NCBI GenBank assembly: GCA_012270555.1
Contig: JAAXIC010000009.1
Location: forward strand, 1 to 64,000
Direction of reading: 5' to 3'
Origin: Chloroflexota bacterium
Lineage (GTDB): Bacteria; Chloroflexota; UBA11872; VXOZ01
Length of the DNA: 64,000 nucleotides
The translations under genes and the position numbers were made by a program. This document shows, piece after piece, positions 4,071-7,374 of this stretch. The notes beneath the pieces are model-generated. The model was not told where the DNA came from, searched no databases, and saw only the letters and a list, made by a program, of their open reading frames with translations. Within the stretch, counting starts at the first letter, position 1. Each line of letters starts with the position of its first letter.

Positions 4071-4099
4071 TTGACACACTATACGTCACCTGTTACTAT
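4071..4099 (+). promoter_or_regulatory. Strong sigma-70-type promoter for the aroF leader
   Basis: TTGACA (4071-4076) and TACTAT (4094-4099) are separated by 17 bases. The -35 is a perfect consensus match and the -10 is close. Transcription would begin near 4106, giving an untranslated leader of over 200 bases before the first coding sequence. This is the best promoter in the window. Confidence 0.75.
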
Positions 4100-4105
4100 T
4101 CCTCT

Positions 4106-4268
4106 TACCTTGCAGCGTGCTTGCCACGCTTTGCAGCAGAAACAAGGGAATATAGGTGTTAGTTCTCGCTCGCAGCTATTATTATCTGTTTACAAAGCCG
4201 GAGGGTCCGGCTTAAGCAGATATGGTTTGCCCTAGCGGGCAGAGCGAGACCAGACAACACCCTCCGGC
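4106..4268 (+). ncRNA. Candidate structured 5' leader RNA upstream of aroF (unclassified)
   Basis: Nested complementary segments predict a multi-branched fold: a closing helix GGTGTT (4155-4160) with AACACC (4256-4261); a helix TCTCGCTC (4164-4171) with GAGCGAGA (4242-4249); an arm formed by TATCTG (4183-4188) with CAGATA (4217-4222), topped by an 8-bp hairpin (4195-4202 with 4206-4213, loop GGG); and a hairpin TGCCC-TAGC-GGGCA (4228-4241). A separate hairpin occupies about 4112-4137. A competing pairing exists: GCCGGAGGGT (4197-4206) is perfectly complementary to ACCCTCCGGC (4259-4268). The array lies between a strong promoter and an intrinsic terminator, the layout of a riboswitch or attenuator. 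I do not recognise conserved cores of T-box, TPP, FMN, SAM, lysine or cobalamin elements. Confidence 0.6.
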
Positions 4269-4271
4269 GCT

Positions 4272-4305
4272 AGCAGAAAGTGAAGAACTTTCTGCTTTTT
4301 CTTTT
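4272..4305 (+). terminator. Intrinsic terminator within the aroF leader
   Basis: A perfect 10-bp stem, AGCAGAAAGT (4272-4281) with ACTTTCTGCT (4287-4296), has a 5-base loop and is followed by TTTTTCTTTT. It lies before, not after, the downstream gene, so it should control read-through into aroF. AGCAGAAA also occurs at 4135-4142 and could pair with the 3' arm instead, giving a possible antiterminated form. Confidence 0.85.
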
Positions 4306-4319
4306 GTAGAGAGGAGCAG

Positions 4320-4436
4320 ATGCCACCGACAAATAGCTGGAACACGCGCGACCGCCAACCACATTGGCAAGACTACCGTAGAACCAATAGAGCCTCACAA
4401 GAGCAGAGGCACACCACAAGAAGGAAAGGTACATAA
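4320..4436 (+). CDS. Possible 38-residue small ORF between terminator and aroF
   Basis: An ATG at 4320 follows GAGGAG (4311-4316) and opens 38 codons ending at TAA 4434-4436, eleven bases before aroF. The peptide is basic and hydrophilic (MPPTNSWNTRDRQPHWQDYR at the start), with Trp at 7 and 16 and Tyr at 19. It lies after the terminator, so it is not a classical attenuation leader peptide. It could couple translation into aroF or be a small protein. The Shine-Dalgarno spacing is short (3 bases). Evidence is positional only; the frame may be chance. Confidence 0.35.
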   Translation: MPPTNSWNTRDRQPHWQDYRRTNRASQEQRHTTRRKGT

Positions 4437-4447
4437 GGTAGAGGAAC

Positions 4448-5497
4448 ATGATAGTCATAATGCGAACCGACGCGACACCGGAGCAGATTGACGCCGTACG
4501 CCAGCGCATTGAAGAGAGCGGCGTGGAATCTACGATAAGTCAAGGCGTAAACAAGACAGTAATAGGCCTAATCGGTAAACGGCCACCCGGCATCATGGAG
4601 CGGGTGCAGGTGTTGCCAGGCGTGGAAATGGTCATCCCGGTTGACAAGCCGTACAAGTTCGCGGCCCGAGGCGAGGGCGGCGGCGATACCCACATTCGCG
4701 TGGGCAACGTGACCATCGGCAGCAATGAAGTCGCCATCATCGGCGGCCCCTGCAGCGTGGAGAGTGAAGAGCAGATCATTGCCACCGCGGAAGCCGTAAA
4801 AGGAGCGGGCGGACACATTCTGCGCGGCGGCGCCTTCAAGCCGCGCACCTCGCCGTACAGCTTCCAGGGCATGGGCGGTCAAGGGCTAGAATTGCTGCGT
4901 ACCGCCGCAAACGCCACCGGCTTGCCCCTCATCACCGAGGTCATGGATCCCCGCAGGGTCCCACTGGTCGCTGAGTACGTCGACATCCTGCAGCTTGGCG
5001 CTCGCAACATGCAGAACTTCACGCTCTTGCAGGAGGTGGGAAAAACCGATAAGCCGGTGCTGCTCAAGCGCGGGATGGCGGCTTCGATTGAAGACTTGCT
5101 GATGTCCGCGGAATACATCATGGCCGCCGGCAATATGCGCGTGATCCTCTGCGAGCGGGGCATTCGTACTTTCGAAACGGCGACCCGCAACACGCTCGAC
5201 CTGAGCGCAATTCCCGTCATCAAAGAAGAGTCGCACCTGCCGGTCGTGATCGATCCCAGTCATGCCACGGGTCGGTGGGAGTTGGTAAAGCCGATGGCGC
5301 TCGCCGCAGTCGCTGCCGGTGCCGATGGCGTGATGATTGAAGTGCACCCCAATCCTGAACTCGCGCTCTCAGATGGTCCGCAGAGCGTCACGCCGGAGCG
5401 CTTCTTCGACATCATGGATGCTATCCGCAAAGTAGCAGCCGCCGTGGGGCGAGAGGTCCCCGCCGCCACCGCCGAGATGGAAGCCGCCACGGCCTAG
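4448..5497 (+). CDS. aroF: 3-deoxy-7-phosphoheptulonate (DAHP) synthase, type I-beta
   Basis: The enzyme condenses phosphoenolpyruvate and erythrose 4-phosphate, the first step of the shikimate pathway. The 349 residues comprise an N-terminal ferredoxin-like regulatory domain (about 1-75, starting [14 protein letters not shown] as in the Thermotoga-type enzyme) and a TIM barrel. Conserved barrel motifs are [59 protein letters not shown] and VIDPSHATG. In this subtype the N-terminal domain usually binds Tyr or Phe for feedback control (family knowledge). The gene is preceded by a promoter, structured leader and terminator, so expression is probably also controlled by conditional termination. 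aroA lies two genes downstream. Confidence 0.95.
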
Positions 5498-5530
5498 CGT
5501 ATCTGCAACCAATTGGAGAGGGCCACGTAC

Positions 5531-6079
5531 GTGAACGCTTGGGTGCAGATGATAGCCGAGGATGAAGCGGAGGGTCAGTTACGCGCCGTCTACCAAGAGC
5601 TTCTTGGCGAGGGACGGCGGCGCGCCGTGCCCGACTTCCTACGCTTGCACAGCCTCGTGCCCCGCGCGATCATACCGCTCGCCCAGTTGCACCGGGCCAT
5701 AGCCTATGGTCCCGGCGAACTGTCGCGGGTGCAGCGCGAGTTGATCGCGACGGTGGTGTCAGCCATCAACGGCTGCGCCCTCTGCCAAGAACTCCATAGC
5801 CGTCTGCTGCTTCACCGCACCCGAGACGAAGCCCTCGTGGCCCAAGTCATGCGCGACTTTCGTACCGCGCCCCTCGCCGCGGCGGACCGCGCCCTGTTGG
5901 AATATGCGGCGAAGCTCACCACCGCTCCCGCTGCCGTGGCGCGCGAGGACATTGACCGATTACGCCAACTTGGCCTGAGCGACGCCGCCATCGTCGAGAT
6001 CGCCACACAAACCGCGCTCTTCAACTACCTGAACCGCGTCATTCAGGGTCTCGGTCTCGGAGAATCTTCCCCGCCATGA
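5531..6079 (+). CDS. AhpD / carboxymuconolactone decarboxylase-like protein
   Basis: The 182-residue all-helical protein belongs to the AhpD-like fold. The core motif is CALCQELHS (C-x2-C-x3-H), the redox-active dithiol signature of alkylhydroperoxidase AhpD and peroxidase-related enzymes; flanking helices ELSRVQRELIATVVSAIN and LEYAAKLTTAP fit the family. It probably reduces peroxides or relays thiol electrons; the exact partner is unknown. The GTG at 5531 is preferred over an upstream TTG because GGAGAGGG (5515-5522) precedes it by eight bases. It sits between aroF and aroA and overlaps aroA by 4 bases, so it appears to be part of the shikimate operon, an unusual partnership. Confidence 0.8.
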   Translation: MNAWVQMIAEDEAEGQLRAVYQELLGEGRRRAVPDFLRLHSLVPRAIIPLAQLHRAIAYGPGELSRVQRELIATVVSAINGCALCQELHSRLLLHRTRDEALVAQVMRDFRTAPLAAADRALLEYAAKLTTAPAAVAREDIDRLRQLGLSDAAIVEIATQTALFNYLNRVIQGLGLGESSPP

Positions 6080-7374
6080 AGCGCATCGAGCCCATCGATC
6101 ACCCCATAAACGCCACCGTGACCCTGCCGGGATCGAAGAGCTATACCAACCGGGCGTTGATTATTGCCGCATTGGCTGACGGCACGTCCACGCTGCGGCA
6201 AGCGCTCTTTAGCGAAGACACCGCGTACATGGCCGAGGCGCTCCGCCAGCTTGGCATCCCGGTCAAAGCCGATGAGACTGCCAAGACGTTCACCGTGGAA
6301 GGCAAAGGGGGCAAGATTCCCGCCGACCGGGCAAAGCTGTTCGTCGGTCTTTCCGGCACAAGCGCGCGCTTTCTCACGGCGCTCGCCGCTTTGGGTCACG
6401 GCCGGTACTGTGTTGACGGGGTTGCGCGCATGCGCGAACGACCCATGCAACCTTTGTTCGAGAGCATCCGTCAACTCGGCGGCACCATACGCCCGCTGCA
6501 TAAGGACGGCTGCCTGCCCATTGAGATTGCCGGGCACGGACTGCGGGGCGGTACTGCCCAGATGGCCGGCGACCAGAGCAGCCAGTACTTCAGCGCCCTC
6601 CTTATGGCGGCGCCGTACATGTCAGAGGGGCTCGATCTTGCTGTAATCGGTGATCTCATCCACGGACAGTACATCACGATGACAATAAAGAGCATGGCAG
6701 ACTTTGGCGTTGTGGCAACGGCTGAGGAAGAGCGGCGCTTCCAGGTTGCGCCCGGACAGCACTATGCGGCACGTACGTACGATGTCGAACCGGATGCCTC
6801 CGCCGCTTCTTACTTCTTTGCCGCGGCGGCGCTCACCGGGGGCACGGTCCGCGTCGAGAATCTCGGCGCCGAGTCTGCGCAGGGGGACTTGGCATTTGTC
6901 GACGTGCTTGCTGCTATGGGTTGCGCGGTCGAGAAGAGCGCCGCTCATGTGCGCGTATTGTGCCCCGGCAAATTGCGAGGCGTGGACATTGACATGGGGG
7001 CTTTTTCCGATACCTTTATGACGCTCGCCGCGCTTGCGCCGTTTGCCGAGGGGCCCACGGTGATTCGCGGCATTGCCCACACCCGGCTGCAGGAAACCGA
7101 CCGCGTGAGCGCCACGGCGCAGGAATTGCGCAAGCTTGGCGTCTCCGTGGCGGAATCCCACGATAGCCTGCGCATAGAGCCGGGCCCAATGCGGGGCGCT
7201 ACGATCGATCCACACGACGACCACCGCATAGCCATGAGCTTTGCGCTCATAGGCCTGCGGCTGCCCGGTATTGCAATCAGCAACCCGGAATGCGTCGCAA
7301 AGACGTTTCCCGATTTCTTCGCACGCCTCGAAGAAGCCGTACACTCCACCACGCGCTCTGCTCACCGTCTTTAG
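6076..7374 (+). CDS. aroA: 5-enolpyruvylshikimate-3-phosphate synthase
   Basis: This enzyme transfers the enolpyruvyl group of PEP to shikimate 3-phosphate. The 432-residue protein has the two inverse-symmetrical domains of the EPSPS family. Motifs include LPGSKSYTNRALI at the N-terminus, GLSGTSARFL with RMRERPMQPL (PEP and phosphate binding), DQSSQYFSALLMAAP, DVEPDASAASYFF, LQETDR and DPHDDHRIAMSF. The loop reads GTSAR rather than the GNAGTAMR of the Escherichia coli type. Its ATG overlaps the stop of the AhpD-like gene (ATGA), supporting cotranslation with aroF and that gene. Confidence 0.94.
   Translation: MKRIEPIDHPINATVTLPGSKSYTNRALIIAALADGTSTLRQALFSEDTAYMAEALRQLGIPVKADETAKTFTVEGKGGKIPADRAKLFVGLSGTSARFLTALAALGHGRYCVDGVARMRERPMQPLFESIRQLGGTIRPLHKDGCLPIEIAGHGLRGGTAQMAGDQSSQYFSALLMAAPYMSEGLDLAVIGDLIHGQYITMTIKSMADFGVVATAEEERRFQVAPGQHYAARTYDVEPDASAASYFFAAAALTGGTVRVENLGAESAQGDLAFVDVLAAMGCAVEKSAAHVRVLCPGKLRGVDIDMGAFSDTFMTLAALAPFAEGPTVIRGIAHTRLQETDRVSATAQELRKLGVSVAESHDSLRIEPGPMRGATIDPHDDHRIAMSFALIGLRLPGIAISNPECVAKTFPDFFARLEEAVHSTTRSAHRL

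Follow-up and report, generated by a model that had tools for sequence, protein, structure and literature searches.

A candidate leader-peptide transcription attenuator upstream of the DAHP synthase gene in Chloroflexota

Leader-peptide attenuation is a textbook case of RNA regulation. In attenuators of the E. coli trp, pheA, and pheST type, tandem cognate codons are followed by an adjacent alternative helix, a terminator, and a biosynthetic or synthetase gene. T-box riboswitches also couple tRNA charging to termination at amino acid and synthetase genes, and in TnaC-type systems a leader peptide with aromatic residues precedes a termination-controlled gene. Outside the Proteobacteria, comparative genomics has described leader-peptide attenuators at trp, trpS, leuS, ilvB, and hisS/hisZ in Actinobacteria and Firmicutes (PMC1262725, PMC2965389, PMC9413887). 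As late as 2010, leader-peptide attenuation was said to be known only from Proteobacteria and Actinobacteria, to which Firmicutes were then added (PMC2965389). No aroF or Chloroflexota attenuator appears in the portions of the open literature searched, which include these three papers; Lopatovskaya et al. 2010 (Mol Biol 44:128) lies outside that scope.

Here we describe a leader upstream of aroF in a Chloroflexota bacterium (GenBank assembly GCA_012270555.1). The stretch analyzed, referred to below as the window, is 64,000 nucleotides long (contig JAAXIC010000009.1, positions 1 to 64,000), and all coordinates refer to its forward strand unless stated otherwise. Sequence and comparison show a leader open reading frame (ORF), an aromatic codon run, a helix between two segments that we call C and D, and an intrinsic terminator, in fixed order. 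Comparison and folding models together indicate that this leader is very probably a ribosome-mediated (leader-peptide) transcription attenuator, by which expression of DAHP synthase would respond to the supply of charged aromatic tRNA.

A promoter scan identified a sigma-70-type promoter (TTGACA-17-TACTAT, with TG before the -10 box; 10 of 12 matches) at 4071-4099, and its hexamers are present in congeners too. The transcript would begin with a 5′ hairpin, P0 (4110-4136), that is absent in congener G003 and is non-essential. The leader ORF, found by frame reading, occupies 4156-4215 and encodes MLVLARSYYYLFTKPEGPA in 19 codons, from a GTG start six bases after the Shine-Dalgarno sequence AAGGGA (4144-4149) to a TAA stop. 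Three tandem Tyr codons (4177-4185), the proposed sensor, and a Phe codon (4189-4191) lie just 5′ of segment C (GCCGGAGGGT, 4197-4206), which is the 5′ arm of the antiterminator-like helix. Its 3′ arm, segment D (ACCCTCCGGC, 4259-4268), is a perfect 10-bp complement of C and ends 3 nt 5′ of the terminator stem. The terminator itself (4272-4305; arms within 4272-4296) consists of AGCAGAAAGU-GAAGA-ACUUUCUGCU and a U-tract, and a terminator scan found no other terminator-like site in the region covered. Two further structures come from folding. In P1, the 5′ arm (4155-4171) pairs with a 3′ arm at 4242-4261, and 83 to 91% of cells are paired across six genomes; the P2 hairpin (4183-4222), whose lower helix has 100% of cells paired in the same genomes, contains the stop codon and holds C if the leader is untranslated. 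The region 4110-4310 folds to -80.7 kcal/mol, compared with -59.7 ± 4.3 kcal/mol for shuffled sequences (z, -4.9; 0 of 200 shuffles as good).

Immediately downstream is the presumptive regulated gene aroF, encoding 3-deoxy-7-phosphoheptulonate (DAHP) synthase (4448-5497; TIGR01361, 400.8 bits versus a cut-off of 267.75). An AhpD-like peroxidase-related gene (5513-6079; TIGR01926) and aroA, encoding 3-phosphoshikimate 1-carboxyvinyltransferase (6076-7374; TIGR01356, 442.5 bits), follow on the same strand. Both are probably in one operon with aroF, judging from the spacing in the first case and the overlap in the second. A 38-codon ORF at 4320-4436 has a good Shine-Dalgarno sequence (GAGAGGAG) and was considered as a second leader; it was rejected, its start codon being ATA in G005 and lost in G001. 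Within this stretch between the terminator and aroF, AGGAG is kept in congeners, and the start codon and frame are not.

The promoter, the nested multi-helix fold, the 10-bp alternative pairing, and the terminator with its T-run had all been pointed out in a preliminary description of this DNA, and each holds up here, the pairing being the key element of the proposed switch. That description had also suggested a riboswitch-like leader in which two competing structures are made possible by a repeat of AGCAGAAA. The first idea stands insofar as the element is cis-acting and termination based; the sensor now appears to be a translated leader peptide, which had been missed, and the most likely signal is the availability of charged aromatic tRNA, sensed by the ribosome, rather than a small ligand bound by RNA. 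The repeat exists, at 4135-4142 and 4272-4279, but its upstream copy is not kept in congeners, nor are the competing structures, so the repeat looks like chance. A second candidate, pairing of a CUAGCG loop with a CGCUAG before the terminator, was likewise rejected, as it is not conserved in G004, G002, G001, or G003.

We compared the leader in the window's own genome and five congeners, and it is present in all six. Each has a short ORF with a ribosome-binding site upstream of aroF that is predicted to be translated; the AGG of the Shine-Dalgarno sequence is kept and the ORF aligns without gaps. The amino acids YYYLF are invariant across these genomes, variation is free at codon 13 and at most N-terminal codons, and synonymous changes occur (TAC for Tyr8 in G003, GGC for Gly17 in G001). 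Segment C is identical across the genus except for its last base in G001, and segment D except for one base in G003. Hardly any change is seen in either terminator arm, and the stretch from the terminator to aroF has drifted.

With a covariance model of the six aroF leaders, five of the genomes showed one further match, weaker than the first and in each case before pheS (TIGR00468); in the sixth, G005, the contig end is too near pheS to judge. These leaders (in the window's genome at G000:C39:12788-12954, minus strand, with four more in congeners) have their own Shine-Dalgarno-like sequence, a 23-residue peptide (e.g., MYPWAWQFTGPESRA...) with the run W-x-W-x-F, and C, D, and a terminator that are the same as before aroF. 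The Phe codon of the aroF leader aligns with that of the pheS leader, and the distance from ATG to terminator is exactly 100 nt in all five pheS leaders. The terminator pattern GCAGAAAG...CTTTCTGCTTTTT occurs in the six genomes only before aroF and pheS. In three of the pheS leaders (L050, L051, and L053), D is in addition the complement of the Shine-Dalgarno sequence of that leader, e.g., GAGAGGC with GCCUCUC; such pairing could shut off leader translation after the decision. Among 24 pheS loci from other genera of the class, no such leader was found.

Over the 11 aroF and pheS leaders, eight core C:D pairs are unbroken, one changing from G-C to A-U, with G-U intermediates there and at two others. 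In a ten-pair frame 89% are paired, because the pheS leaders lack its two outer pairs and two aroF leaders lack one of these. Against a shuffle control, the count of covarying pairs in these 11 leaders was not significant (333 of 500), and the case for C:D therefore rests mainly on a permutation test across families, described below.

At least nine other Chloroflexota families have the same architecture before DAHP synthase, and one has it before tyrA. Nearly everywhere in the class, the region upstream of aroF contains an aromatic-run leader and, after it, a GCAG-type terminator, with peptide ends such as ...WYYYFSRPV, ...AYYFSRFGVTPG, ...FYFFSTPV, ...RYTFAFMRPARLGVHAM, ...VYFAFPAPAQPGRTLM, and ...AYYTFTGPARPAGLPM. 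Families with such leaders are f1 to f5 within the class and f11, f21, f24, f29, f36, and f39 outside it; many other Chloroflexota families lack them. A model of the 11 leaders identified two more: L084, before aroF in a different genus of the class (run RYFMFTEP), and a leader in a distant family (L087, G214:C10:70818-70931, minus strand). The latter carries SSYYYRRTFW in a Tyr-Tyr-Tyr leader ending ...SSYYYRRTFWRVGR, a 10-bp C:D helix (AACCUUUUGG:CCAAAGGGUU), and a GCAG-type terminator, and precedes what appears, from a reading of its N terminus, to be a tyrA-like (prephenate dehydrogenase) gene. Three weak matches that precede other genes, L083, L085, and L086, were not judged to be attenuators of the aroF-leader kind. 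Two of them, L083 (G243:C39) and L085 (G124:C257), come from a single genus of family f16 and encode a conserved small protein (MKWHALNLYIKVSLLMGAIASLLLAAGAEGKWA in L083) that ends directly before a GCAGAAGG-type terminator.

Most leader loci were first seen through the features later tested, which does not apply to a set of 30 DAHP synthase loci chosen by score. Eleven of these have a GCAG-type terminator, and 10 of the 11 have an aromatic-run ORF. In shuffled upstream regions such an ORF appears in about 2% of cases (25 loci); since those 25 loci were chosen for having such an ORF, the 10 of 11 is the less biased figure. A search with the terminator pattern in 301 Chloroflexota genomes matched 47 genomes (28 of 175 genera), with zero control matches. 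Among 30 loci fetched from these matches, the first long downstream ORF contains a DAHP synthase motif in 28, and an aromatic-run leader is likewise present in 28.

The geometry is regular in representative sets of 26 and then 41 leaders, which include several members of some families. The gap from the last aromatic codon to the start of C is 0 to 6 nt, and that from the end of D to the GCAG of the terminator is about -1 to 6 nt, usually 1 to 4 nt. In the 41 leaders, each with its own C:D pair, the pairing energy averaged -22.37 kcal/mol, compared with -16.00 kcal/mol (sd, 0.53) when D was permuted, and none of 20,000 permutations was as good; the inclusion of kin makes this test conservative in energy, yet the leaders are not independent. 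The tests of conservation and covariation in relatives proposed in the preliminary description were thus survived: the leader is in all congeners, and C:D is kept through sequence change across families. In five aroF leaders (L008, L010, L015, L021, and L026), -10-like boxes (TATACT, TACAGT, TACGAT, TATAGT) end 5 to 9 nt before the leader ATG, so these peptides may come from leaderless transcripts, in contrast to the Shine-Dalgarno-led leader of the window's genus.

Codon runs for amino acids of the regulated pathway are thus found as YYYLF in the window's genus and as F/Y/W runs elsewhere. F, Y, and W interchange within the runs and third bases vary, while the aromatic class is kept, as expected if the decoding of aromatic codons is under selection. 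The same observations bear on whether the peptide itself, rather than slow decoding, stalls the ribosome upon a signal such as free aromatic amino acid, as in TnaC. In family f21 the end ...FYYWFSPPA, with a run that covers Phe, Tyr, and Trp, is very constant family-wide, and PA or PPA is a frequent leader ending just before the stop codon, as would suit such arrest. However, F, Y, and W swap, the other residues of the run differ between families, and no arrest residue is constant across families. Moreover, segment C includes the codons of the C-terminal PA/PPA, whose presence can be explained by nothing more than RNA pairing. We consider nascent-peptide arrest improbable, although it is the best placed of the alternatives to attenuation by slow decoding. 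The aroF leaders also differ from TnaC-type systems in combining an intrinsic terminator with an alternative helix. The f21 aroF leaders (L163 to L180) end in SPPA and stop; Pro-Pro-Ala-stop might slow release and prolong ribosome cover of C when amino acids are plentiful.

To model attenuation by slow decoding, the RNA was folded up to the first arm of the terminator with the ribosome footprint blocked out. In the window, C:D pairing was 0.95 with Tyr9 and 0.88 with Tyr10 in the A site, 0.97 at Leu11, and 0.21 at Tyr8. It was zero from codon 13 through the stop codon (0.00 at the stop codon itself), where P1 forms instead. A larger footprint mostly agreed at the Tyr codons. In the pheS leaders, Phe codon 8 is the position that exposes C while preventing a local hairpin; C:D there was 0.73 to 0.98 in four leaders, and in the fifth the helix is visible in the drawn structure. 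With a stall on an aromatic codon, C:D was at least 0.5 in 41 of 44 leaders. An alternative helix that forms only upon stalling is thus predicted by folding, though not cleanly in families f3 and f4 or in three congeners. In the latter, C:D also forms without a ribosome (0.94 in G001, 0.52 in G002, 0.84 in G003), leaving the window, G005, and G004 as the cases in which the model is cleanest. Leaders of f3 and f4 have their stop codon at a greater distance from C, which a ribosome at that codon no longer covers, and C:D can still form in most of them; details must therefore differ there.

These models suggest the following scheme. With plentiful Tyr- and Phe-tRNA, the ribosome would reach the stop codon and cover C; D would then be free or within P1, and the terminator would end transcription. 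When aromatic aminoacyl-tRNA is scarce, the ribosome would stall on the aromatic codons and keep P1 and the lower half of P2 from forming, C would pair with D, and RNA polymerase would read into aroF. The opposite polarity, in which C:D aids the terminator and stalling lowers aroF expression, is very unlikely: C:D and the terminator are indeed compatible and adjacent, but such a switch would shut aromatic synthesis in aromatic starvation, and pheS when Phe-tRNA is uncharged, and known attenuators of such genes act the other way.

A ligand-binding riboswitch or protein-binding leader is the least probable reading of all, for although the multi-helix fold is stable and tightly conserved within the genus, the leader has no Rfam match, no common aptamer-like fold is recognized outside the genus, the whole six-leader fold model gave zero matches in 35 other genomes of the class, and it is the aromatic codon run, C, D, and the terminator that persist outside the genus. 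Rfam gave nothing at the gathering threshold across the whole window and, on the leader at E values up to 10, one irrelevant, sub-threshold ctRNA match to the terminator and no T-box, in line with the earlier description, which had seen no known riboswitch class or T-box. Unlike in a T-box, the sensor in the proposed attenuator would be a translated ORF.

How C:D suppresses termination is the least certain step of this proposal. In the window, D adjoins the terminator stem across the 3-nt gap without overlap, and the customary mutual exclusion of antiterminator and terminator is not observed; the terminator forms at about 0.99 or more in every ribosome state when folded at equilibrium. With no overlap and an intact terminator in every fold, shared bases do not explain read-through. 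Extension of C:D into the terminator arm via the aromatic codons is predicted in some congeners and was discarded, as over 44 leaders it averaged -4.6 kcal/mol compared with -4.0 kcal/mol with shuffled arms, hardly any gain. The 5′ end of C, on the ribosome side, and the 3′ end of D, on the terminator side, form the same end of the helix, so that C:D would keep the stalled ribosome immediately at the terminator. One tentative possibility, more doubtful than the attenuator itself, is that this bridge parks the ribosome there and the hairpin is blocked by its bulk, not by competition for pairing. If so, the effect would be like the block imposed by a translating ribosome, and a phylum-wide class of attenuators would work in this way.

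By its architecture, the aroF leader would work in the manner of E. coli trp and phe attenuation: sequence or folding supports each defining feature open to analysis here, strict overlap of antiterminator and terminator being the doubtful one. The distance from codons to alternative helix in trp is close to that in the aroF leader. Compared with E. coli trp, pheA, and pheST, the aroF leader belongs to Chloroflexota, has DAHP synthase as its target, mixes two or three aromatic amino acids in one run, has an alternative helix that abuts the terminator rather than sharing its 5′ arm, and is without an Rfam match. The actinobacterial and Firmicute attenuators follow the same principle but differ in genes, amino acids, and phyla. 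The design appears to be new to RNA catalogues and widespread in Chloroflexota; its priority is not certain.

If the aroF leader acts as proposed, it raises the mechanistic question of whether a helix that merely abuts a terminator can prevent termination. It would also give a function to unannotated mini-genes in many genomes. Such leaders would mean that the first committed step of aromatic synthesis is widely controlled in this way in Chloroflexota, with a paralogous copy at pheS in the window's genus and, in one family, a run, FYYWF, that would sample all three aromatic amino acids.
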